In this document: in pieces, positions 1 through 25,682 of the stretch
Layout of the letters: each line of letters starts with the position of its first letter
How positions within the stretch are numbered: position 1 is the stretch's first letter
Source of the DNA: Bacteroidales bacterium
Lineage (GTDB): Bacteria > Bacteroidota > Bacteroidia > Bacteroidales > F082
DNA: 64,000 nucleotides
Assembly (NCBI GenBank): GCA_017531225.1
Contig: JAFXLL010000005.1
Span: 1 to 64,000 of the forward strand
Direction: 5' to 3'
The notes under the pieces: model-generated
The model's input: only the letters and a program-made list of their open reading frames with translations
What the model was told of the DNA's origin: nothing
The model's database searches: none
Program-made: the position numbers and the translations under genes

Positions 1-1
1 G

Positions 2-100
2 CTGGGCCACTCCGTCATCTCGCCTTCCAAGGCGGCGGACTACTTGCCACCAGCAGGGGATGTACAGGCGATGCCGGAAGAGGAGGATAACGAAGATTGA
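2..100 (+). CDS. C-terminal end of an unrecognised gene (partial)
   Basis: An open frame enters from the left edge and stops with TGA at 98-100. Only about 32 residues are visible, ending in an acidic tail (EEEDNED). This is too little to assign a family. It is co-directional with the transposase remnant that begins 12 bp later. The coding assignment rests only on the open frame and the clean stop. Confidence 0.4.
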   Translation: MGHSVISPSKAADYLPPAGDVQAMPEEEDNED

Positions 101-112
101 GATTGTCATATC

Positions 113-460
113 ATGCCTCGGAGTGCAAGGAAGGAAAGTGGGGTTGGCATCTATCATGTGATGATGCGTGGGATAAATCGTCAGGCTATCTTCGATGACG
201 ATGAGGATTGCCAGCGGTTTATGGATATTCTTGCAGACCTTCCGTTCCAGTATGATGACGAGGGCAGGCTGCTGCCCATTCGCACTTGTGTGGTCTATGC
301 CTGGTGCTTGATGACGAACCATTTCCACTTGTTGGTGATGGAGAAGGATTGGAAGATTGCGGATGTGATCAAGAGTCTGGCGAGCTGTTATGTGTACTAC
401 TACAACAAGAAGAACGAGCGCATCGGGCATCTGTTTCAGGAGCGTTTTAAAATTCAGTGA
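113..460 (+). pseudogene. REP-associated tyrosine (Y1) transposase, 3'-truncated
   Basis: The first 110 or so residues match the Transposase_17/TnpA-REP family, a single-domain HUH nuclease that cleaves ssDNA through a Tyr. The signature MTNHFHLLV (His-x-His) sits near residues 67-75, followed by a helix with several Tyr (CYVYYYNK) and the usual GHLFQERFK. Family members normally continue for tens of residues with a conserved 'YIHQNPVKAG'-type segment. Here the frame stops two codons after ERFK, and unrelated AT-rich sequence begins at about 450. It is therefore a truncated, probably inactive copy. The break marks the left junction of the accessory islet. Family assignment is confident; inactivity is inferred from the missing end. 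Confidence 0.8.
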
Positions 461-476
461 AGACCAAAGAGAAGAT

Positions 477-791
477 GTGGAGCTGAGGTTTAAGGCATTA
501 ATTGATTGGATGGAAGAAAATTGTGATATAGTCACTAATCCGGCCATATTAAATGTAAGTGCTAATTTGAATGGTAATCCCAATTCCACTTTGTTCAAGT
601 ACACTTTCGTTGAACTAATGAATGATGGTCAACAGAATATGGTATTGTCTGAAGATGCCTATATTGAAAAATTGATGAATGTTCCCTTGATGATAGCTTC
701 AACGGAGGCTTACATTTATTCAGTTGAAGGGCTGGTGCGGGGTAGAGAATTTACAGATTTCATGGTCAAGAATCATAATCAGTTCGTCTAA
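477..791 (+). CDS. Small unrecognised protein at the islet junction, possibly 5'-truncated
   Basis: The frame is open from the transposase break (about 450) to TAA at 789-791. In-frame starts are GTG 477 (about 105 aa) and ATG 510 (about 94 aa). The reading frame upstream of about 450 is only transposase DNA in another frame, so either the gene starts internally or its 5' end was lost. The protein is soluble, moderately acidic, and has no motif I recognise. The next gene starts with GTG directly after this stop (zero spacing), so the two look translationally coupled and are probably one operon. Base composition is AT-rich like the rest of the islet. Confidence 0.5.
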   Translation: MELRFKALIDWMEENCDIVTNPAILNVSANLNGNPNSTLFKYTFVELMNDGQQNMVLSEDAYIEKLMNVPLMIASTEAYIYSVEGLVRGREFTDFMVKNHNQFV

Positions 792-2504
792 GTGAGTAAG
801 CAAAAGCAAAGAATACCATTGACATTGCGTAAAGCAAGTATGATTTCTTATTCGCAGTTATATGCGGATGAGAAAGAGTCTGTGAATTCGCTGGTTAAAG
901 GTATTCCTTCGGACGAAGCTGTGGCCTGGTGCTCGTATATCATATTCAGGAAAGAAAACCTGAAGATAGGGGAAAATGACCTAAACATCTTGGCTCCCTT
1001 ACTTTTCAGTTTTGAAAGCGAGCTACAACATAAAATATCCAACTATCTGGGAGGCTTCTATAATGGTGTAGATTGTCTTATTGACGTAAACTCATTGCTA
1101 AAACTGACACAATATCTAATAGCCCACCCAAATAATGAGCACCATGAACTGACAAAAGTGGAAAAGACAAGTCTGTTCAAAGCGTATTTGCTTTATTGTG
1201 ACGCTTATTTGGAACAAATTAGAAATGGGAGCAGCTTGCCAGTCAATTACACTTCGGATGATATGCTGAGGTGCTATCTGCCAATAAAGTTATTGACAAG
1301 TGATGTCGATGCATTCTCTGACTCAACGCTTGAGGTAATAAAGGGTAAATGGTTCTTTGTGGATTTCGCAAATGCCGACACAAAGTTCAAACAATATGTT
1401 GGGGATTTCATCAGGGAAAAGGGTTATGACTCTGCCATACAATACCTTGGTTATATTTTCAATATTGTTGCCTCTACAACTGTCAATGAACCGCCTACTA
1501 ATGTCATACAATTTAGCGAAGATAGCGGGAAATGGATTAGCTTCATGAACGGCATGACCGTTAATCATGATGGTTGTGCTGTGGAAGAGGATTTAAATGT
1601 TATTCACTCAAAGCCTGTTTATCGTTTGGCGGAAAACAAGTATGCCATTCTATTCTCAAAGTTTTTCGTTGACAAAATGTTCCAGGGAATGTTGTTCGAT
1701 ATGGCCGCGACGCTGGCAGGGATTGGAACTTTTGATGATGAGGTTTCTGCATACAAGACTTTAAAACAGCAGGTAGGAGAATGGTTCTCTGAACACTATC
1801 TTCTATATAGGACTTTGGAAACTTCCCTTTCGAGAAGAATGCCTGTCAGAGTAACTGGTGAAAGTTTGCATGGGGTATTGAAATCAGGCGAGCCGGATTA
1901 TTATGCCAGAAGGAACAATAGGGTTTTTGTGTTTGAGTTTAAAGATGTAAGGTTAGATGACAACACCAAAACGTCATGCGACTATGAGATAATAAGACAG
2001 AGGCTGTTTGAACTGTTTGTGGAGAATGAAAAAGGGCGACCCAGGGGTGTGAAGCAACTGGCAAATGTAATAGAAAAGAAACTCCCCGTGATACTTTCAA
2101 GTGTTGACGATGTTGCCCCTGAGGGATATTTGAATATTTACCCGATATTGGTATATACGGATGGCGGTTTCGATATAGAAGGTGTTAACTATTACCTTAA
2201 CGAAGAGTTTAAGAGGTGCTTAAACAGTTATGATGATAGGTTTCGAGTGAAGGATTTGGTGATGGTTAACCTTAACCTGTTGATGAAGTTAGAGAACTGT
2301 TTCACAAACGGCAAAGTTGTGCTTGACAAAGCGGTGAATGAATATCTGGCCTACAAGGATAGCAAAGAGCAGTTGAATACGGTTCCCTTCAACAAGTATC
2401 TGTTCCAATATGCACGTGCAAAAGGATTCGATATTGGGTTTACTAGAACTTTTAAGGAGACTTTTGATGAATTGTTACGAATTGAACGGGAAATGATTAG
2501 TTGA
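792..2504 (+). CDS. PD-(D/E)XK-like protein of an accessory (putative defence) operon
   Basis: A 570-residue soluble protein with no family I can name. The first 300 or so residues are helical and featureless. Near residues 366-386 there is a PD-(D/E)XK-type core: GEPDYY, then a strand and FEFKD, that is Asp at about 368 and E-x-K at about 382-384 in the usual spacing of restriction-like nucleases. This makes DNA or RNA cleavage a reasonable guess, not a demonstrated one. The GTG start abuts the upstream stop; an alternative ATG is at 840. The following gene begins 2 bp after this stop. The sequence is AT-rich relative to the sugar genes downstream. The neighbours (a Cys-rich HNH-like protein, a KAP NTPase and a broken transposase) suggest a defence or mobile-element role. 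Confidence 0.7.
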   Translation: MSKQKQRIPLTLRKASMISYSQLYADEKESVNSLVKGIPSDEAVAWCSYIIFRKENLKIGENDLNILAPLLFSFESELQHKISNYLGGFYNGVDCLIDVNSLLKLTQYLIAHPNNEHHELTKVEKTSLFKAYLLYCDAYLEQIRNGSSLPVNYTSDDMLRCYLPIKLLTSDVDAFSDSTLEVIKGKWFFVDFANADTKFKQYVGDFIREKGYDSAIQYLGYIFNIVASTTVNEPPTNVIQFSEDSGKWISFMNGMTVNHDGCAVEEDLNVIHSKPVYRLAENKYAILFSKFFVDKMFQGMLFDMAATLAGIGTFDDEVSAYKTLKQQVGEWFSEHYLLYRTLETSLSRRMPVRVTGESLHGVLKSGEPDYYARRNNRVFVFEFKDVRLDDNTKTSCDYEIIRQRLFELFVENEKGRPRGVKQLANVIEKKLPVILSSVDDVAPEGYLNIYPILVYTDGGFDIEGVNYYLNEEFKRCLNSYDDRFRVKDLVMVNLNLLMKLENCFTNGKVVLDKAVNEYLAYKDSKEQLNTVPFNKYLFQYARAKGFDIGFTRTFKETFDELLRIEREMIS

Positions 2505-2506
2505 TT

Positions 2507-3823
2507 ATGCCAGGATTAAAGATTGATAGATATGATAGCCGATGTGCCCTGTGTCGTCAAGCGGAAGCCGACAAGACGGGAAGCCATCTCGCACCGAATT
2601 TTATGATTCACGGCATGTTTTCATACGATGGGAAAGGCCGGCGTGATAGGGAAATTGCTATGCGCGATGGCTTGAATTGGGGTGAACGCATGGTTTATTA
2701 TGGTTCAGAAGTGTCACCCGAAGCTATTAATGCTGACCGAGCTCATGACCTGACAGATGAAGAACTAGAGGCAAATGTAAATAATCTTGTCTGTGATAAC
2801 TTGTTTTGTAAATCCTGTGAAGATAGATTCGGTATTCTAGAAACCTATTATTCACCATATTATGCCAATTGGAAACAAGAAGACGTTAATCCTCGAGTGG
2901 CATATCTGTTTTGGTTATCGGTTTTTTGGAGAATGTGTGTTGGTAGAATGTCGATTTTCCTTAAAGGTGAAGACGAATTTGAAATGCGTCATATTTTAGA
3001 AGAGAATGTGACGTCGTTGGAATCTATCAAGAATGGCAATAATGACTTAGGCGATTTTGGATACGTTTTGTGGCGTACCAAAGGCTTGCAAAAAGGGGAT
3101 TCGGGTATCTTCGGTACCAGAACCGAACACTCGCCGTATATGGTTGTTATAAATGATATAGTGGTGCTTTTTATCTCAAATGTATCAAAGCTTCCCAATT
3201 ATTTCTTTTATGCCGGGTGGAGAATTGAGAAAGATAGTATCAATACCTTTGAAACAGATGGTGAGGCTGTAACTGAGATAAGCCAAGAAGAATTCGCCCG
3301 TCTGAAAAGATTCGTGATTGACGAATCGGAGAAATATGGGTGGGGCCCCGCACAAGAAAAAGTAAAAGTTAGTCTTAGAGAAAGAGACCGTACGGCAGGT
3401 CGTCTGCATTCTGTGGGAATAAATGATGAGAAATATGCTTTGGAAATTGCGCGTATTCAGGATTCAGCTACACCTAAGCCTATGTTTTTGAGAAATTCGG
3501 ATAAGTTCTTTATGGCCGAGATAAAAGAATATGCTTGCAAGCAAGTAGGCAAAAAATATGATATACTTCAAGACCGAAGTTTGTTCATGTTCCAATTCGA
3601 TATTGATAATTATAAAATAGATATCAAAAACTATATAAAAAAGGGTATGGATGTTTCGTTCTATCCATATGTTGACAAACTCTTTGATAGAAAGTATTGG
3701 GGTGGTAAAGAGAATTACCAACGTAAAAAAGACAAGATCAAAGAGTTTTATGATGATGTCATCGCAAAAGGCTATACCTTTGACGACATCATGAATAACT
3801 TAAGAACTCGTTCGGGAGAATAA
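2507..3823 (+). CDS. Cys-rich HNH/treble-clef-like protein of the same operon
   Basis: The start is ATG 2507, 2 bp after the previous stop; a TTG at 2501 would overlap it and is less likely. The protein is about 438 aa. Near the N-terminus a CxxC (CALC, about residues 13-16) is followed by SHLAPNF. About 90 residues later comes CDNLFCKSCEDRF with further Cys pairs. A split CxxC...SH(I/L)xP...CxxCE layout is typical of a group of HNH/treble-clef proteins in which SH is the HNH-like part. Zinc binding is likely; nuclease activity is inferred. The C-terminal 180 residues are Lys/Asp/Tyr-rich and unrecognised. No membrane segments. It follows the PD-(D/E)XK-like gene and is closed by the hairpin at 3886. 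Confidence 0.65.
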   Translation: MPGLKIDRYDSRCALCRQAEADKTGSHLAPNFMIHGMFSYDGKGRRDREIAMRDGLNWGERMVYYGSEVSPEAINADRAHDLTDEELEANVNNLVCDNLFCKSCEDRFGILETYYSPYYANWKQEDVNPRVAYLFWLSVFWRMCVGRMSIFLKGEDEFEMRHILEENVTSLESIKNGNNDLGDFGYVLWRTKGLQKGDSGIFGTRTEHSPYMVVINDIVVLFISNVSKLPNYFFYAGWRIEKDSINTFETDGEAVTEISQEEFARLKRFVIDESEKYGWGPAQEKVKVSLRERDRTAGRLHSVGINDEKYALEIARIQDSATPKPMFLRNSDKFFMAEIKEYACKQVGKKYDILQDRSLFMFQFDIDNYKIDIKNYIKKGMDVSFYPYVDKLFDRKYWGGKENYQRKKDKIKEFYDDVIAKGYTFDDIMNNLRTRSGE

Positions 3824-3885
3824 ATACCAGTCGTGAAGATGTTCGAGGAGATAATTCATTGTTAACGACTGAAATTATTCAAATG

Positions 3886-3919
3886 AAGGCTGGTGCCATA
3901 GATGCATCGGCCTTTTTTT
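3886..3919 (+). terminator. Intrinsic terminator after the nuclease-like operon
   Basis: AAGGC-t-GGTGC pairs with GCATC-g-GCCTT across a 7-nt loop and runs into seven T's. It lies 62 bp after the stop at 3823 and separates the first operon from the KAP unit. Confidence 0.6.
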
Positions 3920-3988
3920 GTTTTAGGTTGTTGAAGGGTGAGGCGTTGGTAAAAGAGGAAATGAGAGGAAGCAAAACATGAAAATGTA

Positions 3989-4018
3989 TTTGTGGTTCTG
4001 TCGAAATCGTTATTTTTG
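3989..4018 (+). promoter_or_regulatory. Bacteroidota-type promoter for the 2TM-KAP unit
   Basis: TTTG at 3989-3992, an 18-bp spacer, then TATTTTTG at 4011-4018 fits the Bacteroidota TTTG / TAnnTTTG consensus. A second -7-like TACCTTTG lies at 4052-4059. The 326-bp gap 3824-4149 otherwise holds only the terminator at 3886; I see nothing else in it. The leader to the ATG at 4150 would be about 125 nt. Confidence 0.55.
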
Positions 4019-4149
4019 CAAAGAGAATAAAACTGAAATTTATATACTGAGTACCTTTGTGAGAAAAGGAGTATTAGTATGAAACTCAGTCATGCCTTCT
4101 ACGATTGTTGAAAAGAATAGTTATCAACTGAACTAAACTTAAAATAACC

Positions 4150-4950
4150 ATGCGACTTCACCGAGCCTTGTTCTATATTCTTTTGACTATCTTCGTGGCC
4201 GGTATGTTGATGGCCATCTTCGTTGATCCATCAAAAGTGATGAGTCGCATCGCTACTGGGCTGATTACTGGCTCGTTTGTAGGTCTGATTTCGACCATTG
4301 TCAACTATTCCTATGCGTGGCAGACTTATTTCAGGAATCTGTATAACAGTATTTTTGAGTTCTATGAAGATTTGGGTAATGAGTTGATACATGCAAAAGT
4401 AGAAGTCTCATACATTGAGAGTTTTAGCAAACAATATCTGATAGATAGCGCCAAGCCTTTTACTGAGGATGACGCCAAAAAGCTGCATGAAAACCAACAT
4501 AAATTTGATAAATACCGAATTAAATTGGACGATGCCCCTTATGCTCCGTTGTTTTTCTCAAAAGATACCGTTTCTGTCCTTGACGAATTGTACAATTTTA
4601 CACACAGCAATGTTTTTATGATTTTTTCTTATAGTAGTCTAAAAGATTCCTTTGTTTGTTTGCAAGAAGGCCATTTTATGGATGAAGAAGAGGAACGAAT
4701 TGCCATTGGTAACAAAGACGATTTTTTCGACTACATTGTTCAAAATATGTACAACTGGCGCGACTATACGGCTCATTGTCAACGACGGCTTGTCGATATA
4801 TTAGTGGCCATTCAACAGTCACTTAAACCTTTCAATGTCGGAAAAGGTTATGACGAGATTCCAAAGATGCTATCTGATTTAGTGGCAATGGATTTAAAAG
4901 ATATCCCTAATAGGAATCCTATGGATGAAAAGACTCTTGATGTTGAGTAA
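4150..4950 (+). CDS. Two-TM membrane protein paired with a KAP NTPase
   Basis: 266 aa. Two hydrophobic segments (about residues 5-24 and 33-52) are joined by a very short turn, so this is an N-terminal membrane hairpin with a cytosolic helical domain of about 210 residues. No enzymatic motif is visible and I do not recognise the family. It lies 47 bp upstream of a KAP-family NTPase in the same direction, behind its own promoter. The two probably form one membrane-associated unit. By analogy with KAP-containing anti-phage loci it could be the sensor or effector partner, but that is inference. Confidence 0.65.
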   Translation: MRLHRALFYILLTIFVAGMLMAIFVDPSKVMSRIATGLITGSFVGLISTIVNYSYAWQTYFRNLYNSIFEFYEDLGNELIHAKVEVSYIESFSKQYLIDSAKPFTEDDAKKLHENQHKFDKYRIKLDDAPYAPLFFSKDTVSVLDELYNFTHSNVFMIFSYSSLKDSFVCLQEGHFMDEEEERIAIGNKDDFFDYIVQNMYNWRDYTAHCQRRLVDILVAIQQSLKPFNVGKGYDEIPKMLSDLVAMDLKDIPNRNPMDEKTLDVE

Positions 4951-4997
4951 TTAAGGTGAATGGAAAAAAGTGAAAAGGTATTGATTAATCGTATTAT

Positions 4998-7601
4998 ATG
5001 AAACTTCATAAATTAATAATTCACATCCTTATAATAGCATTGCTGTTGCTGCTTCACGAGCCGCTGTTCGCTTGGTGGTGTGATACTGGTATTGGCAAGT
5101 TCATAGGAAGCGTTAAACCGACGCTTTTCAATGATTGTATGGCACTGGCTATTGGCGTTTTGGGAGGTCAGGCTGCATTGATAATTCCAAAACGATTGTC
5201 GAATGAAGGTAATGGCTTCTCGAGAGTGGTTGCGGGATATTTGCTATTCATAATTCTGGTTCAGAGTATCACGTTTAATGATTGCTTTATTCATGCTTAT
5301 TCGGCTCCATGGTTCCGTTATACGGACATGTTGGTTCCTTTTTTGTTGGTTTTCTGGGTGGCTTCATGGATAAAATCCAAAGATGAAAAGATCTCTTCAG
5401 ATTCTAATGCAGACAATGGATTGCAGTTGCTTTATGATGATACGGATGAAGCTGATTTCCTAAATAGAGGTGAACGTCTGAAGCATATTTGTAAGTTTTT
5501 GAGAGAGAATAAGGGAAATGCGAAATGTGCGACGGGTGTGGCTATAACTGGAGGATGGGGGGCTGGAAAGAGCTGGGTGTTGGAACACGTCAAAAAACAC
5601 ATGGAGCAAGAAGAAGAGATATGCATTGACTTTAAGCCATGGGTATATGGTGAAACGGATATCACCCGACAGTTTTACCTCACTTTGGAAAGGGAATTGA
5701 AATCGCAAAACTACAAGGTCAAGGAATTGAAAGATGCCGTCCTGGAGATGGATAATGATAAACTGTCAGGAATGGGTAGGGCCACTTTGTCTCTGATGGG
5801 TGTCGTAACCAAGTCTCAGGGACGCTCCAACGCTATTGATAAGGTCAAAAAAAGACTTTTGGAATATAACAGGCAAATTTATGTCTTTATCGACGATTGC
5901 GATCGTCTTGCACGGGAAGAATTGCTACAGGTGTTGAGCTTAATCAGGAATACAGGAGATTTTCCGCTGGTTACCTATTTAATGGCGTTTGACGAACAGG
6001 TGGTGCGTAAATCCTTGAAAGATGAAGACGGAATACAATATGTGGCCAAGATGTTCAATTTGACAGAAGTGTTGCCACCTGTAACTAATGATACGATTGC
6101 CCACTATTTGATGGATTCAATTTGGCTGATGCTGGGCGTAAATGAAATGAATGAAAACCCATTTGCGAGGATACCCATCGCGAAATACCTGCCAACTGTC
6201 AGGGAGGCAAAGAAGTATTTGAACCTGCTTCGGGCCGACTATGCACACCTGAAAGAGCGAATTGACAAATATTTGTTTTATACGGAGGATTTTTTTCTGC
6301 TTGAATTGCTGAAGTACAAGTATCCTAATTTGTATTTTGAACTAAGAGTCAATCCCAAAAAGTATTTGAGATACGAAAGGGACGGATGGAATAGCCCTGT
6401 TGGATTGCCTAATGAAAATGCTTTCGATGATGAAGATGATCAATTGGCGTTGATGAAGGCGTTGTTTAGAAAGATGGATGTATTTAGCGACAAAGACAGT
6501 GTGGTTGGGGTGGCAAACCGAGAATACTTCCAATTGTATTTTGATGAAAAAACCACAAAACGCTATGTGGATGGAAATGAGTTTATGGATTCGGTTAAAA
6601 ATGGAACGCTATACCAAAGTGTTGGAGAATGGATTGATGACGGTTGTTCGGGTGTGATAGAATTGTTATGTACCGTGTATGCTTATGTGTCAAGGCGTCA
6701 GCTGTTCTTATCGATGGTGGAGTATATTTGGCATCAATGTGAAAATAGCAAGGCGGAAAACACTGTTAGTAAGTTGACTTATGGCTATGACACAAAGGAA
6801 TATAAGCATGGTTACAAAAGTATTAGTGCTCTGATAGCCGAGACTCCCCAAATAAAACTGCTCACTTTCCAACACCTTCCTGAGCCAGGGGAATCAATAT
6901 CAAACGAAAACAATTTGGAGAAATTGATTGACGATTCGAATCGTACAATGGAATTGATGGGAATTGGGCTTAATGCATTGAGACACACTCGGCAAAAGGA
7001 TTATCCTTATGAGGAAATCATGCATTATGTTGATTTGTTATGGAATAAATTGATTTCCGAATTGCCGAATGATGCGATGTCGACCTTGAATGTGATTGAT
7101 ATTTGGGCAGATTGTACTTCGGAGGATACGTTTGAACGCATGATATTGCCGCTGATTAAAGCGCATCCACAACGGTGGTTGGGAGCGACGGTTACCACTA
7201 TTAAACACGAAGAAAAGAAGTATTATTTGTTGAAAAGCAGAGGGACGCATGCCATCTTTGGTAGTCGTGCTAGAATAAGTGGCATTCTGCCTCAAATTAT
7301 AGGTAGTGCTAGAGATGAAGACAAAGATTACGTAGTCGCATATGCAAACTTGGTAGACAGACTGGATGCCATTCTTGATAATGAAGAAGTTTACAGCGTT
7401 GTGGGTAGAATGGAAGTGCTAATGGAGGGGATAGAGGCAACGGCGCTACCGGCTTTGGCAGATGGAATAATGATAGGTTTGGACTTGTCGATCCCGATAG
7501 AGGCCGCTTTTAATCAATTAAGAGATACTCCATTTTGGAAAGGAGACGACTTGAGGATTCGAAGGGAATCCCCGCAATTCTATTTTAAGACAGATATATA
7601 A
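4998..7601 (+). CDS. KAP family P-loop NTPase, membrane anchored
   Basis: 867 aa. Four hydrophobic segments occupy about residues 5-130. The P-loop domain follows: Walker A GGWGAGKSW (Lys about 191) and Walker B YVFIDDCDRL (about 295-304), then a sensor-like 'RNTGDFPLVTYLMAFD' stretch typical of KAP NTPases (PF07693). The C-terminal half of about 450 residues is helical and unassigned. KAP NTPases are STAND-related ATPases linked to the membrane; bacterial members include PifA of the F plasmid and QatA of Qat systems, which exclude phage. The partner here is the 2TM gene upstream. The base composition is AT-rich and unlike the sugar genes that follow. The unit ends in a terminator touching the stop codon. 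Confidence 0.85.
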   Translation: MKLHKLIIHILIIALLLLLHEPLFAWWCDTGIGKFIGSVKPTLFNDCMALAIGVLGGQAALIIPKRLSNEGNGFSRVVAGYLLFIILVQSITFNDCFIHAYSAPWFRYTDMLVPFLLVFWVASWIKSKDEKISSDSNADNGLQLLYDDTDEADFLNRGERLKHICKFLRENKGNAKCATGVAITGGWGAGKSWVLEHVKKHMEQEEEICIDFKPWVYGETDITRQFYLTLERELKSQNYKVKELKDAVLEMDNDKLSGMGRATLSLMGVVTKSQGRSNAIDKVKKRLLEYNRQIYVFIDDCDRLAREELLQVLSLIRNTGDFPLVTYLMAFDEQVVRKSLKDEDGIQYVAKMFNLTEVLPPVTNDTIAHYLMDSIWLMLGVNEMNENPFARIPIAKYLPTVREAKKYLNLLRADYAHLKERIDKYLFYTEDFFLLELLKYKYPNLYFELRVNPKKYLRYERDGWNSPVGLPNENAFDDEDDQLALMKALFRKMDVFSDKDSVVGVANREYFQLYFDEKTTKRYVDGNEFMDSVKNGTLYQSVGEWIDDGCSGVIELLCTVYAYVSRRQLFLSMVEYIWHQCENSKAENTVSKLTYGYDTKEYKHGYKSISALIAETPQIKLLTFQHLPEPGESISNENNLEKLIDDSNRTMELMGIGLNALRHTRQKDYPYEEIMHYVDLLWNKLISELPNDAMSTLNVIDIWADCTSEDTFERMILPLIKAHPQRWLGATVTTIKHEEKKYYLLKSRGTHAIFGSRARISGILPQIIGSARDEDKDYVVAYANLVDRLDAILDNEEVYSVVGRMEVLMEGIEATALPALADGIMIGLDLSIPIEAAFNQLRDTPFWKGDDLRIRRESPQFYFKTDI

Positions 7602-7627
7602 AGCCTTCGTATTAGCGAGGGCTTTTT
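7601..7627 (+). terminator. Intrinsic terminator of the KAP operon
   Basis: AAGCCTTCG pairs with CGAGGGCTT (one G-T) around a 6-nt loop, then six T's. The stem begins at the last base of the KAP stop codon. Confidence 0.75.
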
Positions 7628-7658
7628 TGTTAAGTCAATAAATGTTTTTGTATCTTTG
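7626..7658 (+). promoter_or_regulatory. Promoter of the DegT aminotransferase gene
   Basis: TTTG at 7626-7629, a 21-bp spacer and TATCTTTG at 7651-7658. The -33 element sits in the T-tract of the preceding terminator. Confidence 0.6.
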
Positions 7659-7675
7659 CTTCGAAATTGTGCAAT

Positions 7676-8830
7676 ATGAATCCCAACCACCGCATACACC
7701 TCTGCCTCGCCAAAATGAGCGATACCGGCGCTGAGCAACGCTTCATCCAAGAAGCGTTCGACGCTAATTGGGTGGCACCGTTGGGACCGAATGTGGATGC
7801 CTTTGAGAAATCGTTAGAGGATTATTTCAATACGTCTAACCTTCCACATTTCACCTCTCACCTTAACGTTGCAGCTCTCAGTTCCTGCACCGCCGCCATC
7901 CACGTGGCATTGTTGCTTTTAGGTGTGGGCGAAGGCGACGAGGTGATCTGCCAAAGCTTCTCTTTCTGCGCAAGTTCAAATCCGGTGGTGTATTGCGGCG
8001 CTACCCCTATCTTCGTCGACTCGGATGAAGAGACCTGGAACATGTCGCCGGAACTCCTCGAAAAGGCTATCAAAGACCGTATCGTCAAGACTGGACATAA
8101 GCCCAAAGCCATCATTGTGGTGGATCTTTACGGCATGCCGGCCAATTGGGACGCTATTGAGGAGATTGCCAAAAGATATGAGATTCCCGTGGTCGAAGAT
8201 GCCGCTAATGCTCTTGGTTCAACCTATAAAGGCAAGCCTTGCGGGACTTTCGGGGATCTAGCCACCTTGTCGTTCAACGGCAACAAAATGATTACGACCA
8301 GTGGGGGAGGAGCCATCATCTGCAAAGATGAAGCGACCAAGAAACGCGCTATTTTCCTTGCTACACAGGCCAAAGAGCCTTACCTCCATTACGAGCATGA
8401 GACTATCGGCTACAACTACCGCATGAGCAACATCTCAGCGGGAATTGGCCGCGGACAGATGACGGTGCTTGAGAATCACATTAATCATCACAAGCATGTG
8501 CATGAGCTTTATAAGGAGCTATTGAAAGATGTGACCGTCCAAGATAATCCCAATGCTGATTTCGATTCCAATTTCTGGTTGTCTACGATCCTCTTCGACA
8601 AAGAACTTGATACGGAAGCCTTCTGCTTGAAGTTGGACAAGGCTGGCATCGAGGCTCGTCCTTTATGGAAGCCAATGCACCTGCAGCCGGTTTTCAAGAA
8701 CACTCCGTCATACGTCAACGGCATTTCAGAAAAGCTATATAAAACAGGTATTTGCCTGCCTTCAGGGCCTTGGGTGAGCGACGAGGACGTGAAGTATATC
8801 GTTGATACCATCAAGGCAGCGATAGTGTAA
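7676..8830 (+). CDS. DegT/DnrJ/EryC1/StrS aminotransferase
   Basis: A 384-aa PLP-dependent sugar aminotransferase of the fold-type I family that makes amino sugars for glycans and surface polysaccharide. The phosphate-binding region (ALSSCTAAIHVAL), the aromatic/Asp block (VVEDAANALGSTYKG) and the catalytic Lys (SFNGNKMITTSGGG, about residue 204) are all present, and length is normal. ATG 7676 is chosen because the promoter ends at 7658; the upstream in-frame TTG at 7667 is less likely. It is close in sequence type to pilin-glycosylation or PglE/LegC-like enzymes that use UDP-4-keto-6-deoxy sugars, which fits the FlaA1/CapD dehydratase at 13.2 kb. The exact substrate cannot be read from the sequence. 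Confidence 0.88.
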   Translation: MNPNHRIHLCLAKMSDTGAEQRFIQEAFDANWVAPLGPNVDAFEKSLEDYFNTSNLPHFTSHLNVAALSSCTAAIHVALLLLGVGEGDEVICQSFSFCASSNPVVYCGATPIFVDSDEETWNMSPELLEKAIKDRIVKTGHKPKAIIVVDLYGMPANWDAIEEIAKRYEIPVVEDAANALGSTYKGKPCGTFGDLATLSFNGNKMITTSGGGAIICKDEATKKRAIFLATQAKEPYLHYEHETIGYNYRMSNISAGIGRGQMTVLENHINHHKHVHELYKELLKDVTVQDNPNADFDSNFWLSTILFDKELDTEAFCLKLDKAGIEARPLWKPMHLQPVFKNTPSYVNGISEKLYKTGICLPSGPWVSDEDVKYIVDTIKAAIV

Positions 8831-8880
8831 TTTGTTTAGACTCTTACCACTTACGGTTAGCACACCCACCCCAAGAAGGC

Positions 8881-8983
8881 ACCGTTTGCGGTGGAGGATA
8901 GGATGGACAATCCCGCCTGTTGGACAGCGGGCGTAGTCCAAGGGCGCAGGAGATTGCGGTCCTGTCAAGAGGGAAGGACAGAA
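8881..8983. other. Hairpin-rich intergenic segment, unassigned
   Basis: Within the 300-bp gap 8831-9130 four consecutive inverted repeats occur: ACCG/CGGT at 8881, TGGAC...GTCCA at 8904-8940 with nested CCCG/CGGG and CTGT/ACAG, CAGGA/TCCTG, and CTGTC/GACAG. It is more GC-rich than its surroundings. No T-tract follows on either strand, so it is not a simple terminator. It may be a structured RNA or a small mobile-repeat remnant. No known family is recognised. Confidence 0.35.
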
Positions 8984-9045
8984 AAAAAGCTCTCAATAAT
9001 GTTTTACAAAAGATTGTAATATTACAACTATTTTAGAAAGTTTTG

Positions 9046-9053
9046 TATTTTTG
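9046..9053 (+). promoter_or_regulatory. -7 element upstream of the ATPase gene
   Basis: TATTTTTG followed by CA, in the Bacteroidota form. It is 78 bp from the ATG at 9131 and about 9 bp from the small ORF at 9062. Confidence 0.55.
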
Positions 9054-9061
9054 CATCCGAA

Positions 9062-9115
9062 ATGACGGTTTCCGAAACGGTGGTTTCTGAAGTAATCATT
9101 TCTGTAATAAGGTAA
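9062..9115 (+). CDS. Possible 17-codon leader ORF made of 15-bp repeats
   Basis: ATG 9062 to TAA 9113-9115 encodes MTVSETVVSEVIISVIR. The DNA is three degenerate 15-bp units (9059-9103), so the peptide repeats a five-residue pattern. It starts where transcription from the -7 element at 9046 should begin and ends 15 bp before the ATPase gene. Whether it is translated is unknown; the 15-bp units could instead be a binding site. Confidence 0.25.
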   Translation: MTVSETVVSEVIISVIR

Positions 9116-9130
9116 AAAATGATATAGAAT

Positions 9131-10450
9131 ATGAAGTTCTACGACAGGGAGCAGGAAATGGCCTTCTTGAAGGAAACCCGGGAGAAGGCCGAAAAGGTGG
9201 CGCGCTTTACGGTGGTGACTGGCCGCAGACGCATCGGTAAAACCACATTGGTGCGGGAGGCATACAGCGACAAGCCTTTCGTCTATTTCTTTGTGGCGAG
9301 AAAGGCCGAGAGCGACCTCTGCGAAGTGTACCTGGAGGAAATCAACGAGAAGCTGGGCATCCCCACATTGGGCAGCAGCCGCAAGTTTAGCGACATCTTC
9401 CGCTACCTGATGCAGCTTTCGGTGACGCAGAGCTTCACACTGGTGATTGACGAGTTTCAGGATTTCTTCCGGGTGAACAAGGCCGTGTTCAGCGAGATGC
9501 AGAGTATATGGGATGAGTTTGAGAAACGGTCGCACATCAACCTTATCGTGTGCGGCAGCATCTACTCGCTGATGCAGAAGATTTTCAAGGACAAGAAGGA
9601 GCCTTTATATGGACGCAATACGGGCGAACTGAAACTGAAGCCTTTCCGCCCTTCGGTGCTGAAACAGATTATGGCGGATGCGAAGCCCGGTTACAGCAAG
9701 GAGGACTTGCTGGCGCTGTTCACCTTTACGGGCGGGGTGGCCAAATATGTGAACCAGCTGGTGGATGCAGGAGCGACCGACAAAGACTCCATGATAAGGC
9801 ACATCATCAGCCCCAACTCGACTTTCCTGAACGAGGGCAAGAACAACCTGATTGAGGAATTCGGCAAGGATTACGGGACCTATTTTTCCATCCTGTCATG
9901 CATCGCGCGAGGCAAGAACACCCGCAGCGAGATTGAGGATGTGATAGGCAAGGAGGTGGGAGGATACCTGACCAACCTGGAAAACGAGTATGAGCTGATT
10001 GGCAAACGGCAACCCCTGTTTGAGCAAAGCGCGAACAAGAATGTGCGCTACGAGCTGGACGATGTGTTCTACTCGTTTTGGTTCAGGTTTGTCTTCAAGT
10101 ACAGCTATATTATCGAGATAGAGAACTACGGGAAGTTGCGTGAGATTGTGGAGCGCGACTATACCACCTTCAGCGGTTTGATGCTGGAGCGTTATTTCCA
10201 CCGTGTGGCGATGGAGAGCGGCGACTATACACGTCTGGGCCGCTGGTGGGACCGACATGGTGAGAACGAGATTGACATGATTGGCGAGGACGAGCTGGCC
10301 GACAAGGCCACGTTCTACGAAGTCAAGCGGCAAAAGGCCGACATCAGCATCGGTCTGCTAAAGAAAAAAGCCGAGGTGATGCTGCTGGCGACGCACGAGT
10401 TCAAAGGCTACGAGATTGATTACGTGGGGCTGAGTATGGAGGAGATGTAG
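9131..10450 (+). CDS. ATPase of the archaeal-ATPase/DUF234 type
   Basis: A 439-aa soluble protein. The N-terminal AAA+/STAND-like ATPase (PF01637 type) has Walker A TGRRRIGKTTL (about residues 30-40) and Walker B LVIDEFQDF (about 111-119). A winged-helix stretch follows. The C-terminal DUF234 region has a PD-(D/E)XK-like pattern, NEIDMIGEDEL...FYEVKRQK (about 377-401). Such genes are common as single, patchily distributed genes in Bacteroidota and archaea; their role is not established. It stands alone between sugar genes with its own promoter and terminator. Codon use is GC-richer than the 0.5-7.6 kb islet, so it was probably acquired separately. Confidence 0.85.
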   Translation: MKFYDREQEMAFLKETREKAEKVARFTVVTGRRRIGKTTLVREAYSDKPFVYFFVARKAESDLCEVYLEEINEKLGIPTLGSSRKFSDIFRYLMQLSVTQSFTLVIDEFQDFFRVNKAVFSEMQSIWDEFEKRSHINLIVCGSIYSLMQKIFKDKKEPLYGRNTGELKLKPFRPSVLKQIMADAKPGYSKEDLLALFTFTGGVAKYVNQLVDAGATDKDSMIRHIISPNSTFLNEGKNNLIEEFGKDYGTYFSILSCIARGKNTRSEIEDVIGKEVGGYLTNLENEYELIGKRQPLFEQSANKNVRYELDDVFYSFWFRFVFKYSYIIEIENYGKLREIVERDYTTFSGLMLERYFHRVAMESGDYTRLGRWWDRHGENEIDMIGEDELADKATFYEVKRQKADISIGLLKKKAEVMLLATHEFKGYEIDYVGLSMEEM

Positions 10451-10478
10451 TTTATAGTTGAGAGTTTATAGTTTAGGC
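10451..10478 (+). repeat. Degenerate 7-bp repeat, AT-rich type
   Basis: About four heptads (TTTATAG TTGAGAG TTTATAG TTTAGGC) directly follow the ATPase stop codon. They are the same type as the arrays at 11644 and 12161. Confidence 0.6.
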
Positions 10479-10506
10479 CAGCCCCTCCCAAGGACCGGCC
10501 TTTTTT
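10475..10506 (+). terminator. Probable terminator of the ATPase gene
   Basis: AGGCC pairs with GGCCT around a 17-nt C/A-rich loop, followed by six T's. Confidence 0.5.
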
Positions 10507-10530
10507 GTTGCCCGAAAACGAAAGAATTTG

Positions 10531-10538
10531 TATTTTTG
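10531..10538 (+). promoter_or_regulatory. gmd promoter (-7 element)
   Basis: TATTTTTG followed by CA, 19 bp before the gmd ATG. A TTG at 10508-10510 is spaced 20 bp upstream as a -33 candidate. Confidence 0.6.
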
Positions 10539-10557
10539 CAAATAAAATTTTGAGACT

Positions 10558-11643
10558 ATGCCTAAAACCGCTTTAATCACCGGCATCACGGGACAGGACG
10601 GGAGCTTCCTGGCGGAGTTCCTGCTTGAAAAAGGCTATGACGTACACGGCATCATGCGCCGCTCGTCGTCGTTCAACACGGGTCGCATCGAACACCTCTA
10701 CCTCGACGAATGGGTGCGCGACATGAAGAACAAACGCCTGCTCACCCTGCATTACGGCGACATGACCGACTCGTCGTCACTGGTGCGCATCATACAGCTG
10801 GTGAAACCCGACGAGATCTATAACCTCGGCGCCCAAAGCCACGTGAAGGTGTCGTTCGACTGCCCGGAATACACAGCCGAGACTGATGCCGTCGGCGTGC
10901 TGCGTCTGCTCGAGGCGGTGCGCATCTTAGGCATGGAGAAGAAATGCAAGATCTACCAAGCCTCCACATCGGAGCTCTTCGGCAAGGTGCAAGAGGTGCC
11001 GCAAAAGGAGACGACGCCGTTCTATCCGCGCTCACCCTACGGCGTGGCCAAGCAATACGGCTACTGGATCATGAAGAACTACCGCGAGAGCTATGGCATG
11101 TTCACGGCCAACGGCATCCTCTTCAACCACGAGTCGGAGCGCCGCGGCGAGACCTTCGTCACCCGTAAGATCACCTTGGCTGCGGCACGCATCAAGCAAG
11201 GACATCAGGATAAGCTCTATCTTGGCAACCTCAACGCCCTACGCGACTGGGGCTATGCCAAGGACTACGTGGAGTGTATGTGGCTGATGCTCCAGCAAGA
11301 GCAGCCGGATGATTACGTCATCGCCACCGGCGAGTGCCATACCGTGCGTGAGTTCTGCACGCTGGCGTTCAAATATGCCGGCATCGAGCTGCGCTGGGAA
11401 GGCGAGGGGATTCAGGAAAAAGGCATCGACACCGCCACAGGCAAGGTGCTGGTGGAGGTCGATCCGCGGTACTTCCGTCCCGCCGAGGTGGAACAGCTGC
11501 TTGGTGACCCTACTAAGGCCAAGACGCTGTTGGGTTGGAACCCTCGGAAGACTTCGTTTGAGGAGCTTGTTAAGATTATGGTGGAGCATGACATGAAGTT
11601 CGTGAAGAAACTGTATTTGAAGGCTCATCTTGAAGATGAATAA
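10558..11643 (+). CDS. gmd: GDP-mannose 4,6-dehydratase
   Basis: 361 aa. It converts GDP-mannose to GDP-4-keto-6-deoxymannose, the first step to GDP-L-fucose, in the cytosol. An extended SDR fold is clear: NAD(P) motif TGITGQDGS at residues 8-16, [16 protein letters not shown], the substrate/catalytic block [16 protein letters not shown] and the YGVAK catalytic Tyr-Lys. Length and start are standard. Its partner fcl follows at 12220, but the two are separated by 576 bp holding a four-helix-bundle gene and heptad arrays. The pair is usually adjacent, so the gap looks like an insertion. Confidence 0.96.
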
Positions 11644-11720
11644 TAGTGTAGAGTGTAGAGTTTAGTGTTGAGAGTTTAGAGTAGTTTAAAGTGGAAAGTT
11701 TAGAGTAATAAGTGTATAGA
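11644..11720 (+). repeat. Degenerate 7-bp repeat array (GAGTTTA type)
   Basis: Starting at the base after the gmd stop codon, about ten to eleven imperfect heptads (TAGTGTA GAGTGTA GAGTTTA GTGTTGA GAGTTTA ...) run to about 11720. The complementary orientation occurs on the other side of the next gene. Confidence 0.7.
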
Positions 11721-11754
11721 TTAAAGAAAAAAATTCAATGTAAACAATAAAAAA

Positions 11755-12120
11755 ATGGAAGTTTTTGGATATCGTAAACTGATTGCTTATCAGAAAGCTA
11801 AAGAAATAGTTAAGAGAACATATAAGCTATTGAAGAAGTTCCCGGCTGAAGAACGCTACGCAATGTGTGACCAATTGAGAAGGGCTTCAGTATCCATAAC
11901 TTCAAACATTGCTGAAGGAGTGAATCGTTTTTCTATTAAAGACAAAGCTCGTTTTATTGAAATTGCTTATGGATCTCTGATGGAAGTGTCATCTCAATTT
12001 GAGATAGCCGAAGAACTGGGGTATATTACAACAGCTGACCGTCAGAACATGGATCAATTAATAGAGGAAGACGCCCGCCTCTTATCAGGCCTTCTCAACT
12101 CATACAAACCTACAAACTAA
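11755..12120 (+). CDS. Four-helix-bundle protein (23S rRNA IVS / Avd-like family)
   Basis: 121 aa. Matches the PF05635 family: a basic N-terminus with YRKLIAYQKAKEIV, the conserved LRRASVSITSNIAEG block (about residues 43-57) and a C-terminal helix with LMEVSSQFEIAEELGYI. The family was first seen in intervening sequences of 23S rRNA and is structurally like Avd of diversity-generating retroelements. A nucleic-acid-binding role is suggested but not proven. No TAnnTTTG promoter is seen before it. It interrupts gmd-fcl and is bracketed by heptad arrays in opposite orientation, as a cassette would be. Confidence 0.88.
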   Translation: MEVFGYRKLIAYQKAKEIVKRTYKLLKKFPAEERYAMCDQLRRASVSITSNIAEGVNRFSIKDKARFIEIAYGSLMEVSSQFEIAEELGYITTADRQNMDQLIEEDARLLSGLLNSYKPTN

Positions 12121-22220: not shown

Positions 22221-24125
22221 ATGGAAAACAAAGAGCTTATGGCCATCGATGCCAATGAGAAAATGAGAATCGTGGAATTGAACCAGTCTTCAATTCTTCC
22301 GGGCAGTATTACTTTGGACAAGAAACCTCAAGAGATGATTCCCCAGGATGAGGAACTTCCTGAGCTTGTTGCCGACGAGGATCTGATGGAAGAGGAAGAG
22401 GCTGAGGAAGTGGAACTTGATATTGAAGGAAAGACCAAGGATGAATTGGCCGCCATGCTCGAGGAGATTGTCCAAGAACCTGATGTAAACAAGATCAAGG
22501 ACAAAGTCACCGCCGTTCGCGTTCGTTTTATGCAACTCAACAAAGAGGACATGGACAAGGAGTACGAGGCCTTCCTCGAAGGCGGTGGCGACAAAGAAGC
22601 CTACCAGCATGAGATGGACGATGCAGAGAAGCGCTTCAACGCTGCTTTCGGCATCTTCAAGGCTAACCGCGCCAAGCAGAACGAACTGCTGGATGCCCAA
22701 AAGCTCGAAAACCTCGCTCAAAAACAAGCCATCCTCGAGGAATTCAAGCAACTGATCGCCTCAGAGGAGACCCTGAAGAAGACTTACGACGACTTCCGCG
22801 TGCTTCAAGATAAATGGAAGACCATCGGCCAGGTGCCCGCTACCGAGAACGCCAACCTTTGGAACACCTACCATTTCCTGGTGGAGAAGTTCTTCGACAA
22901 AGTCAACATCAACCGTGAGTTGCGTGACCTCGATATGAAGAAAAATCTCGATGCCAAGATCGTGCTTTGCGAGAAGGCTGAGGAACTGATGGACGAAAAA
23001 TCCATGGCCAAGGCATTCAAGGAACTCCAGAAGCTCCATGAGGAGTGGAAAGAGATTGGCCCTGTGCCACAAGATAAGAAAGACGAGATCTGGGAGCGCT
23101 TCAAGGCTGCCACCGACAAGATCAACGCCATCCGCCGCGAGCATTATTCAAAGATCCAAGAGGAACAGAATGCCAACCTTGAGACCAAGACCGCTCTGTG
23201 CGAGAAGGCTGAAGAGCTGCTGGCCGAAGAGAATACCACCATCAACGCATGGCAGAAGAAGTCAGAGGAACTCAGCGAACTCTTCAAGGTGTGGAAGACT
23301 GTTGGTCCCGCTCCAAAGAAGCAAAATGAAGACATCTGGGCTCGCTTCAAAGGCACCATGGATACCTTCTTTGCCAAGAAAAAGGAGTTCTTCGCTTCAT
23401 TGAAAGACAAGCAGACCGAGAACCTGGAGCGCAAGATCAACCTGTGCATTGAGGCTGAAGGGCTGCAGGAATCCAATGAATGGAAGAAAGCCACCGAGCG
23501 TTTCAAGAAGATGCAGGAAGAATGGAAGGCCATCGGCCCGGTGCCGAAGCGTCATGCCGACAAGATCTGGAAGCGTTTTAGAGCTGCTTGCGACACATTC
23601 TTCAGCCGTAAGGCCGAGCATTTCGGTGGCCTGAAGGAAGAAGAAACCGCCAACCTCGCCGCTAAACAAGCCATCATTGAGGAAATCAAGAACTTCGAGC
23701 TGAAGCCCAGCCGCGCTGAGAATATGGATGCCATCAAGGCTCTCCAGAAGCGTTGGATCGAAATCGGCCACGTCCCGATGAAATATAAGGACAGCATCAA
23801 CACCGAGTATCGCAATGCCGTTGACGCTTTGTTCGACAGAATGAGAAACAACCAGAACGAGATCACCACCAACGAATACAAGGAGATGGTTGAACTCATG
23901 AAGGACGATCCGGAGGCAGGCGACAAGATGCGCCGCGAGAAGACCAACCTCGCCAACAAGATCCAGAAGCTCCGCGATGAGATCAGCGTGCTCGAAAACA
24001 ACATCGGCTTCTTCTCCAACAGCAAGAACTCCGAGCTGATGAAGGCTGAGTACGAGAAGAAGATCAACAAGGCCAAGAACGACCTGAAGGTGCTTGAGGC
24101 CAAGCTGAAGATCATCAATGATTAA
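22221..24125 (+). CDS. DUF349 repeat protein
   Basis: 634 aa, almost wholly helical and highly charged. An acidic N-terminus (EEEEAEEVELD) precedes at least five DUF349 repeats of about 75 residues, each with W(K/R)xIG(P/Q/H)(V/A)P and a following W/F-phase helix (for example WKEIGPVPQDKKDEIWERF). The C-terminus is a coiled coil. The family is conserved in Bacteroidota and has no established biochemical function. The last 8 bp overlap aroC, so the two are probably co-transcribed and coupled. Confidence 0.9.
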   Translation: MENKELMAIDANEKMRIVELNQSSILPGSITLDKKPQEMIPQDEELPELVADEDLMEEEEAEEVELDIEGKTKDELAAMLEEIVQEPDVNKIKDKVTAVRVRFMQLNKEDMDKEYEAFLEGGGDKEAYQHEMDDAEKRFNAAFGIFKANRAKQNELLDAQKLENLAQKQAILEEFKQLIASEETLKKTYDDFRVLQDKWKTIGQVPATENANLWNTYHFLVEKFFDKVNINRELRDLDMKKNLDAKIVLCEKAEELMDEKSMAKAFKELQKLHEEWKEIGPVPQDKKDEIWERFKAATDKINAIRREHYSKIQEEQNANLETKTALCEKAEELLAEENTTINAWQKKSEELSELFKVWKTVGPAPKKQNEDIWARFKGTMDTFFAKKKEFFASLKDKQTENLERKINLCIEAEGLQESNEWKKATERFKKMQEEWKAIGPVPKRHADKIWKRFRAACDTFFSRKAEHFGGLKEEETANLAAKQAIIEEIKNFELKPSRAENMDAIKALQKRWIEIGHVPMKYKDSINTEYRNAVDALFDRMRNNQNEITTNEYKEMVELMKDDPEAGDKMRREKTNLANKIQKLRDEISVLENNIGFFSNSKNSELMKAEYEKKINKAKNDLKVLEAKLKIIND

Positions 24126-25020
24126 GTTCACTTCCTTTGGCGAATCCCACGGGGTGGCGGTAGGTGGTGTCATTGAAGGCTGCCCAGCTGGCTTGGCAAT
24201 CGACTTCCAGTCCATCCAAGAGGATTTGGCCCGAAGGGCAACAGGCAAAACCTCATCGGAATCCCAACGCAGGGAGCCCGATGAGGTTGAGTTTTTGTCA
24301 GGCCTCCTTGACGGCGTTACCTTGGGCACACCTATAGCTTTCCTGGTGCGTAACACCGACGCCCGACCTGAGGATTACGCTGACTTGAAAGACGTGTTTC
24401 GTCCTTCCCATGCCGACTTTACCTATCAAGCCAAATATGGCATCCGCGACTGGCGGGGCGGAGGCAGGGCTTCGGCTCGCACCATGTTGCCATACGTGGT
24501 GGCTGGCGCCATTGCCAAACAGCTCCTGGCAGCACAAGGCATCAAGGTGAGTGCGGAAGTTCATAGCATTGGCGGCGAGACGAATCCCGCTAAAATAGAG
24601 GCTTTGCTGCAGCAATGCAGGGAAGAGGGTGACTCGGTCGGTGGCATCGTTCGCGGCAGCATCACTGGACTTCCAGCCGGTTTGGGTGAGCCTTTGGATG
24701 ATAAGTTTCAAGCCTGTCTGGCCAAGGCGATGTTTACCATCCCCGCAGTGAAAGGCTTCGAGTACGGTGATGGCTTTGCCATGGCCTCAATGCGCGGCTC
24801 GGAGACTAATGACCAGATGGATGGAACGACGTTCCTTACCAACCACTCTGGTGGCATCCAAGGCGGCATCACCAATGGGGAAGAGGTCTTCTTTAATGTG
24901 GCTTTTAAGCCCATACCCACGCTCGGCCGCGGCAACCGTCACGACGTCTGCACCTTGCCTCGGGCCACCGTCATCGTTGAAGCTATGGCAGCGCTCACTA
25001 TTGTGAGATTCAAGCTATAG
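24118..25020 (+). CDS. aroC: Chorismate synthase, compact form
   Basis: 300 aa. The FMN-dependent last step of the shikimate pathway (EPSP to chorismate). Motifs: SFGESHG near the N-terminus, RPSHADFTYQAKYGIRDWRGGGRASAR, GSETNDQM and SGGIQGGI(T/S)NG. The typical enzyme is about 350-360 aa. Here the segment between FKPIPTL and the RHD motif is only a few residues long, and the region after VHSIGG is also shortened. The normally RHDP-like motif reads RHDVC. All substrate and FMN residues that I can place are kept, so it is probably active. It overlaps DUF349 by 8 bp and the convergent higA by 11 bp. Confidence 0.93.
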   Translation: MIKFTSFGESHGVAVGGVIEGCPAGLAIDFQSIQEDLARRATGKTSSESQRREPDEVEFLSGLLDGVTLGTPIAFLVRNTDARPEDYADLKDVFRPSHADFTYQAKYGIRDWRGGGRASARTMLPYVVAGAIAKQLLAAQGIKVSAEVHSIGGETNPAKIEALLQQCREEGDSVGGIVRGSITGLPAGLGEPLDDKFQACLAKAMFTIPAVKGFEYGDGFAMASMRGSETNDQMDGTTFLTNHSGGIQGGITNGEEVFFNVAFKPIPTLGRGNRHDVCTLPRATVIVEAMAALTIVRFKL

Positions 25021-25372: not shown

Positions 25373-25682
25373 AATGCTTCGTTATTTTTTCGATTGTTAT
25401 TTTAACCACTATTCCGTTCTCATCTGGAGAACTACTAAACAATAAACGGTATTGGTTGTTAATCCAAACGGCTTCGCTTCCTTTGAGATCTCCTTTCTTT
25501 TTCTCGTAATGGAGAGATTTGAAGAGATAGAGGTCTTCGATACGTCGAGCTGATCTTAAATAATTAATGGTTTTAACATATTGTTTAATAATTTCTTTGC
25601 TTAATTTCCTATAACTGTGATTGTTAGTAACTCCAGAAGAATATAGCTCTTCTAAAAAGGGATCATCGAACTCAATAATCAT
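25362..25682 (-). CDS. higB: HigB/RelE-family toxin
   Basis: 106 aa. A RelE/HigB-type ribosome-dependent mRNA endonuclease: N-terminal helices, then HYEKKKGDLKGSEAVWINNQYRLLFSS and the terminal strand VKITIEKITKHYEK. Basic residues (Lys/Arg) and the terminal His-Tyr are as expected for the active surface. It is slightly longer than typical because of an N-terminal extension (FDDPFLEELYSSGVTNN). First gene of the pair; the -7 element is at 25733. Confidence 0.88.
   Translation of the reverse strand: MIIEFDDPFLEELYSSGVTNNHSYRKLSKEIIKQYVKTINYLRSARRIEDLYLFKSLHYEKKKGDLKGSEAVWINNQYRLLFSSSPDENGIVVKITIEKITKHYEK

Follow-up and report, generated by a model that had tools for sequence, protein, structure and literature searches.

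An AT-rich accessory islet with two candidate defence modules at the head of a surface-polysaccharide cluster in a Bacteroidales genome

Gene content and composition of the islet

The DNA analysed here (the window) comprises the first 64 kb, from base 1, of contig JAFXLL010000005.1 (C12 of our own genome, G000) of a Bacteroidales bacterium whose genome amounts to 2.58 Mb on 14 contigs. Near its start lies an AT-rich islet (451-7601) of two gene pairs, nuc and p440 followed by p266 and KAP, and directly downstream of the islet an aminotransferase gene opens a surface-polysaccharide cluster. Because the window begins at a contig end, the DNA to the left of base 1 cannot be seen. The islet genes, their associated signals and both flanking genes are on the forward strand. 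The first pair consists of nuc (792-2504), encoding a putative PD-(D/E)XK nuclease of 570 amino acids (aa), and p440 (2507-3823), encoding a Cys/His protein of 438 aa that is tentatively an HNH-like zinc protein; the listed open reading frame (ORF) of p440 opens at a TTG at 2501, and an ATG is found at 2507. The second pair, p266 (4150-4950) and KAP (4998-7601), encodes a small membrane protein of 266 aa and a membrane-anchored P-loop nucleoside triphosphatase (NTPase) of the KAP family with 867 aa. Each pair is ended by a terminator-like hairpin, at 3885-3915 (12 pairs, then a T run) and at 7600-7625 (11 pairs), the latter marking the right boundary of the islet; overall, the hairpin scan yielded 7 structures against 7.0 in shuffled sequences, i.e. 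no excess. Two TAnnTTTG boxes (4011 and 4052, together 4011-4059) are a possible promoter of the second pair by their consensus, the first with a TTG 21 bases upstream, the second with none within the range inspected. To the right of the islet follow a Bacteroidetes-type promoter-like box, TATCTTTG, at 7651 and the aminotransferase gene (7651-8830 together with the box), which we take to belong to the DegT family. An earlier sequence-only reading of this DNA had described two compact operons with nuclease-like and KAP genes belonging to no named system, and this description is borne out by the gene arrangement and by our scans of Pfam, NCBIfam and PADLOC.

The GC content is 0.511 at 1-450, 0.394 at 451-7601 and 0.487 at 7602-64000, and the lowest value reached by any downstream stretch of 7151 bp (in 100-bp steps) is 0.468. 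A similar break is seen in the GC content at third codon positions, which is 0.43, 0.37, 0.40 and 0.44 for nuc, p440, p266 and KAP, respectively, whereas in 39 downstream ORFs of at least 150 aa, selected mechanically, it averages 0.628 (standard deviation 0.059, minimum 0.527). The islet thus departs from the composition of the downstream DNA, and the greater AT-richness noticed earlier relative to the sugar genes that follow holds across the window.

On the left the islet adjoins a truncated Y1 (IS200/REP-type) transposase gene (113-460), which matches Pfam Y1_Tnp (3.4e-8) and, well below the cut-off, NCBIfam REP_Tyr_transpos (7.7e-5; 22.6 bits, cut-off 80). Since these matches span profile positions 7-102 of 121 and 45-109 of 146, the transposase lacks its C-terminal end; a complete Y1/REP domain with its C-terminal tyrosine was not found in this ORF. 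In PHROGs the transposase matched at an E value of 0.0048. The edges had been called sharp, which is true of the truncated transposase on the left and of the hairpin and promoter-like box on the right, but the AT-rich DNA begins inside the transposase gene. The view that the REP-type transposase brought the islet in is not supported, because the gene is truncated, has a GC content of 0.487 identical to that of the rest of the window, has no relatives in the other 99 genomes of the genus (E ≤ 1e-8), and because 331-620 and 7451-7800 have no direct repeat of at least 10 bp in common. It looks like a broken neighbour of the islet rather than a demonstrated vehicle. Neither a tRNA gene that could serve as attachment site (1-12000) nor any Rfam family (1-9200) was detected, and the many weak repeat pairs in 1-9200 include none usable at the islet edges. 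The two gene pairs might have been joined by a single mobile insertion. Joined on from the transposase break (about 450) is an AT-rich open frame (456-791; GC content 0.366) whose stop codon abuts the GTG start of nuc, and which is either a gene remnant or a 93-aa ORF starting from an ATG at 510; scanned as 390-788, it gave no match in Pfam, PADLOC or NCBIfam at E ≤ 1 and none in PHROGs at 0.1.

KAP belongs to a well-defined group of proteins already known, the KAP P-loop NTPases, and is the only main gene of the islet with a match above a Pfam cut-off (KAP_NTPase, 1.2e-26; 94.1 bits, curated cut-off 20). The Walker A (GGWGAGKS at 185) and Walker B (VFIDDCD at 296) motifs are both present. According to hydropathy, hydrophobic segments are located within residues 1-127, with a weak one at 814-838, and no hydrophobic peak falls inside the KAP domain (178-377). 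PHROGs adds a match to a family of unknown function (1.9e-8). Relatives were detected in 13 other genomes among the 150 family genomes searched, and their matches are confined to residues 69-549, leaving the C-terminal third unmatched. The partner p266 shows hydropathy peaks at its N-terminus (1-32 and 30-52); it occurs in 1 of 150 family genomes, our own, with no relatives in the others or on plasmids, and its library matches are all below threshold (best NCBIfam 3.4e-4, 19.9 bits against a cut-off of 397).

The aminotransferase site in related genomes

The aminotransferase gene served as the conserved right flank by which the site was located in relatives. Matches over at least 330 of its 383 residues, with 66-82% identity, were found at 15 places in 14 other genomes of the same genus; with shorter matches counted, 69 of 100 genus genomes (our own included) have a match at E ≤ 1e-60. 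Fourteen of the 15 places were fetched, and three of the 15 have less than 1 kb of upstream sequence. At 12 places, in 11 same-genus genomes, at least 3 kb precede the aminotransferase gene. The gene sets found there differ; they are not wholly different, as some genes recur between places. Conserved synteny across the genus is thus not observed, in agreement with the earlier view of the islet as accessory, and nuc itself occurs in only 4 of 100 genus genomes.

Proteins from 9 of the 12 places were compared with PADLOC, and matches were obtained at eight: Hachiman HamB (1.7e-203) and HamA (6.6e-36) at L066; AbiP2 (7e-173) and PDC-M29A at L064; AbiLi (2e-85) and a viperin-like protein at L067; AbiH (4e-25) at L070; PDC-S49 (9e-166) at L063; PDC-M60A and PDC-S56 (8e-162) at L065; PDC-M62A/B at L068; and PDC-S71 (2e-171) at L074. 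Given the variable DNA upstream of the aminotransferase gene, and such matches at 8 of the 9 places scanned, we conclude that the islet is real accessory DNA and that the site, where a surface-sugar cluster begins, is rich in defence genes. In total, 17 of 30 proteins scanned upstream of the aminotransferase gene matched PADLOC, some merely as generic ATPases, compared with 1 of 10 proteins from downstream in the window, an ATPase (9131-10447); this contrast is biased, because the 30 proteins were picked by eye. The ATPase gene concerned (9131-10450) lies just downstream of the aminotransferase gene and matches PDC-S27 (1.7e-46), so that defence-like content may extend past the right edge of the islet. 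Two of the places, L064 (G102:C3) and L069 (G105:C2), are alike from the aminotransferase gene to a tyrosine-recombinase-like ORF (292/316 aa; by eye), and the different genes beyond this ORF possibly mark a swap boundary.

Relatives of KAP also occur near this site. Among the 150 family genomes searched, matches to KAP were found in 12 other genomes of the genus, and in all four in which KAP and an aminotransferase of at least 70% identity are on one contig (G079, G087, G095, G102), KAP lies upstream on the same strand at 5-14 kb. The probability of this arrangement by chance is about 1.4e-4, calculated with a 15-kb limit that was set post hoc. In G098, G112, G116 and G147 the two genes are on different contigs, as are KAP and a 62% aminotransferase in G060; in G014, a 62% aminotransferase has KAP matches at distances of about 10 and 19 kb; in G090, KAP lies about 60 kb from one of 57% identity; and G113 has a KAP match and no aminotransferase match at 1e-60.

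The nuc and p440 families and their neighbours

In nuc, the motifs GEPDYY (at 366) and FEFKD (at 381) are found, and residues P275, D369, E382, K384, Q422 and P451 are invariant in all 23 aligned members; the alignment omits the short pieces from G122 and G524 and the front portion of the split G002 copy. D369, E382, K384 and Q422 are likewise invariant in 25 of 25 rows, which comprise some partial versions of nuc from the window and exclude the G122 and G524 fragments. The D...ExK...Q arrangement is what we take to be the PD-(D/E)XK nuclease pattern, and nuc represents a conserved family with invariant residues of a nuclease, putatively of this type. It has no PADLOC match (E ≤ 1), no NCBIfam match, none in PHROGs, and a best Pfam match of 0.13, below the cut-off; an alignment of its profile with that of an HsdR in hhalign gave nothing. 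In p440, the CxxC, SHxxP and CxxCE motifs suggest by eye a tentative HNH-like protein. Residues C13, C16, H27, C101, C104, E105 and R142 are invariant in the 12 longer members; when shorter members are included (18 rows), the His, the second motif (CxxCE) and the Arg are conserved in at least 90%, and the first CxxC in less. No p440 match above the cut-off was obtained in Pfam or NCBIfam and none in PADLOC (E ≤ 1), PHROGs gave 0.0048, and no similarity to a short HNH-like ORF emerged in hhalign. Scanned together, nuc and p440 yielded only sub-threshold Pfam and NCBIfam matches (best 0.076). The libraries searched contain no named entry for either family or for their pairing, and our literature search found neither family, nor the site upstream of the aminotransferase gene, named.

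Both families are patchily distributed. Searches located nuc in 7 of 174 genomes of the family, in 16 of 395 genomes of the phylum (our own counted in each, as in the genus figure above) and in 8 Hymenobacter plasmid records, and p440 in 2 of 100 genus and 15 of 395 phylum genomes (our own counted in both). Because nuc was not found in IMG/VR or phage records, and p440 only once in IMG/VR, we abandoned a viral origin of the islet. In the other three genomes of the genus with nuc (G140, G072 and G122), the stretch read around nuc does not contain the aminotransferase gene, the copies in G072 and G122 being at contig ends. A second, distant nuc copy is present on contig C14 of our own genome; in a tree of the 23 rows the window copy groups with that of G140 (support 100/99) and not with this second copy; among the deep branches, several are long or weakly supported.

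The setting of the nuc family is rich in defence genes. Besides the window, 24 nuc loci were read, 22 of them chromosomal and two from the 8 plasmid records, and 10 have defence or restriction-modification (R-M) neighbours that were verified with hidden Markov models or annotated: AbiLi (4e-61) and AbiLii (2.8e-12) at L010, a type I restriction endonuclease at L012, AbiEii at L013 (1.1e-95) and, as annotated, at the near-identical plasmid loci L079 and L080, Septu PtuA at L109 (3.6e-216) and L124 (6.5e-108), a type IIG R-M protein (3.8e-165) and HEPN_Toprim (5e-19) at L118, a type I methyltransferase (2.6e-212) at L123, and PD-Lambda-4_A (1.7e-21) and ApeA (1.5e-41) at L121 in our own genome. 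At the last of these (contig C14, 127000-140500) the second nuc copy is closely preceded by an ApeA-type HEPN gene and a 1267-aa gene resembling PD-Lambda-4_A, with a Schlafen/AlbA_2 gene downstream.

These neighbours bear on the idea that nuc, p440 and a lost gene in the frame 456-791 are the remains of a single larger R-M or type IV system cut at the transposase junction. The frame does look 5'-truncated and abuts nuc, and nuc relatives occur among R-M genes at L010, L012, L118 and L123; however, the neighbours of nuc vary from locus to locus, no relative of the frame was found in the loci compared (E ≤ 0.01), and nuc and p440 are both open and of a length that is typical of their families or greater. 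We therefore regard such an origin as quite unlikely. The nuc relatives at L015 (G002:C1) and L014 (G122:C37) are split or cut, the latter at a contig start, which suggests that nuc may easily be lost. Together with the broken transposase and the gene remnant at the left edge, these split relatives could also indicate that the islet is a relic of decaying or non-functional mobile DNA, but all four main islet genes are open without stops and nuc retains every invariant residue, making this explanation very improbable.

Relatives of p440 are found in varied surroundings. At L141 one adjoins a type I methylase gene (4.6e-159), and the single IMG/VR record (IMGVR_UViG_3300030294_000939; L147) carries another in a cargo block (5974-12108) together with RhuM (PDC-S05, 8e-147) and Lamassu LmuA and LmuB, located after genes which by eye resemble lysis genes. 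At L150 (G164:C60, 2871-6468) a relative is lined up with a small gene and an AAA-like ATPase gene, and an ORF resembling a Y1 transposase (by eye) is found farther along. Elsewhere in the window, a 121-aa gene (11755-12120) between gmd-like and fcl-like genes resembles what we take to be four-helix-bundle (S23-type) proteins and has a distant relative on the KAP-bearing contig L087; around an acidic 634-aa ORF (22221-24122) the AT skew is strong, with a value of 0.331 at 23001-24000, and the GC content dips to 0.368 at 25001-26000.

Proposed function and relation to known systems

We consider it probable, with moderate confidence, that the islet is an accessory defence cassette of two candidate modules at a hotspot that extends across the genus, immediately ahead of the aminotransferase gene. 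The first module (792-3823), the tightly spaced nuc and p440, would most likely cut invading nucleic acid; having no recognisable methylase, it would need an infection trigger or modified phage DNA as its target. The second (4150-7601), KAP and p266, might form an NTP-driven sensor-effector in the inner membrane, most likely similar to PifA or Tmn, which would stop phage growth or kill the infected cell, with the unmatched C-terminal third of KAP as the likely sensing part. If the cassette is of this kind, the aminotransferase gene marks a genus site of exchangeable antiviral genes beside surface-sugar genes, and reading the DNA upstream of it would be a simple search rule for new systems. Surface sugars often serve phages as receptors. 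The catalogue of defence systems searched would, moreover, have missed two protein families whose members lie beside known systems, one of the families having invariant nuclease residues.

Several observations weigh against a defence cassette at a defence site. At L072 the two proteins scanned upstream of the aminotransferase gene gave no PADLOC match. L069, outside the nine scanned places, has a long stretch in common with L064. At L075 and L076, likewise outside the nine, the upstream genes resemble sugar genes with GC contents of mostly 0.36-0.50, and since sugar-like genes at these places are often AT-rich too, low GC content is not specific to defence here. The 10 of 24 nuc loci with defence or R-M neighbours come without a random-locus control, and the other 14 are unscanned or without defence matches. 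The AlphaFold2 model of nuc, made from 2 sequences only, has a mean confidence (pLDDT) of 36.6, that of p440 one of 37.5, and profile searches of solved structures gave a best E value of 0.3 for nuc with 6 rows, no match for nuc with 23 rows, and no convincing match for p440. The nuc copies at L118 and L119 (75% identical) have a 340-aa downstream gene in common, so that nuc can have another steady partner. Finally, nuc and p440 are adjacent at none of the 24 other nuc loci and at none of the 11 p440 loci; recurrence thus gives no support for their cooperation, and their pairing in the window may reflect two free modules that came together by chance.

The sugar-like genes at L075 and L076, and the 13 of 30 proteins upstream of the aminotransferase gene without a PADLOC match, are what would be expected if the site were an ordinary variable region of the surface-polysaccharide cluster, with AT-rich passengers among which defence genes are merely tolerated foreign DNA. 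Against this, PADLOC matches occur at 8 of the 9 scanned places, several of them to named systems, and KAP lies upstream of the aminotransferase gene in the window and in all four genomes with both on one contig at an aminotransferase identity of at least 70%. We thus consider an ordinary variable region unlikely and prefer the defence cassette. A more specific proposal is that nuc and p440 constitute an undescribed two-nuclease antiviral system without a methylase, both belonging to 'dark' Bacteroidota defence families that recombine freely; this is a tentative possibility, which we regard as rather doubtful. If it is correct, nuc recombines with Septu, AbiE, AbiL, R-M and ApeA loci and p440 with R-M and phage-borne Lamassu loci, and the islet combines a nucleic-acid-cutting module with a membrane KAP module at a surface-glycan locus, so that receptor variation and intracellular immunity would come from one swap site.

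Among described systems, the best PADLOC match of KAP is PifA (1.1e-28), known from the exclusion of T7 by the F plasmid. The likeness consists in the KAP NTPase domain; the match extends over residues 179-446 of KAP and only over positions 41-343 of the 720 of the PifA profile, and was thus not full-length. Features beyond those of PifA are the N-terminal membrane segments of KAP, its C-terminus without matches, and p266 as a small partner in the membrane. With qatABCD the similarity is weaker, as QatA matches KAP at 1.2e-11 in PADLOC and with 32.3 bits against a cut-off of 600 in NCBIfam, but no other Qat match was obtained among six islet proteins, i.e. the four genes qatA-D are not together present. 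PD-(D/E)XK restriction-like nucleases have the D, the E-x-K and the following Q which are conserved in 23 of 23 nuc members; nuc differs from them in having no library match above a cut-off, no match in the PDB, and a long N-terminal region of its own. Tmn is described as a membrane NTPase of the KAP family that is linked to the inhibition of phages by an unknown mechanism (PMC11846954). Like the window KAP, it is a single large membrane protein (PMC11846954), whereas the window has p266 as an extra partner; no Tmn-named match to KAP was found at E ≤ 1 in PADLOC 2.0.0, whose content was not checked for a Tmn model. For Bacteroides fragilis, a wider use of the term 'defence island' has been proposed, one that takes in variable surface structures with linked R-M genes; the segments there are large, mediated by integrative and conjugative elements, and carry R-M genes at polysaccharide loci (PMC5729914). 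With its place next to variable genes for surface sugars, the islet agrees with the idea, drawn from the linkage of R-M and polysaccharide loci in B. fragilis, that variation of receptors moves together with internal defence (PMC5729914). In contrast to B. fragilis, the site described here is a recurring one upstream of a single aminotransferase gene, in another genus, and it holds many types of systems.

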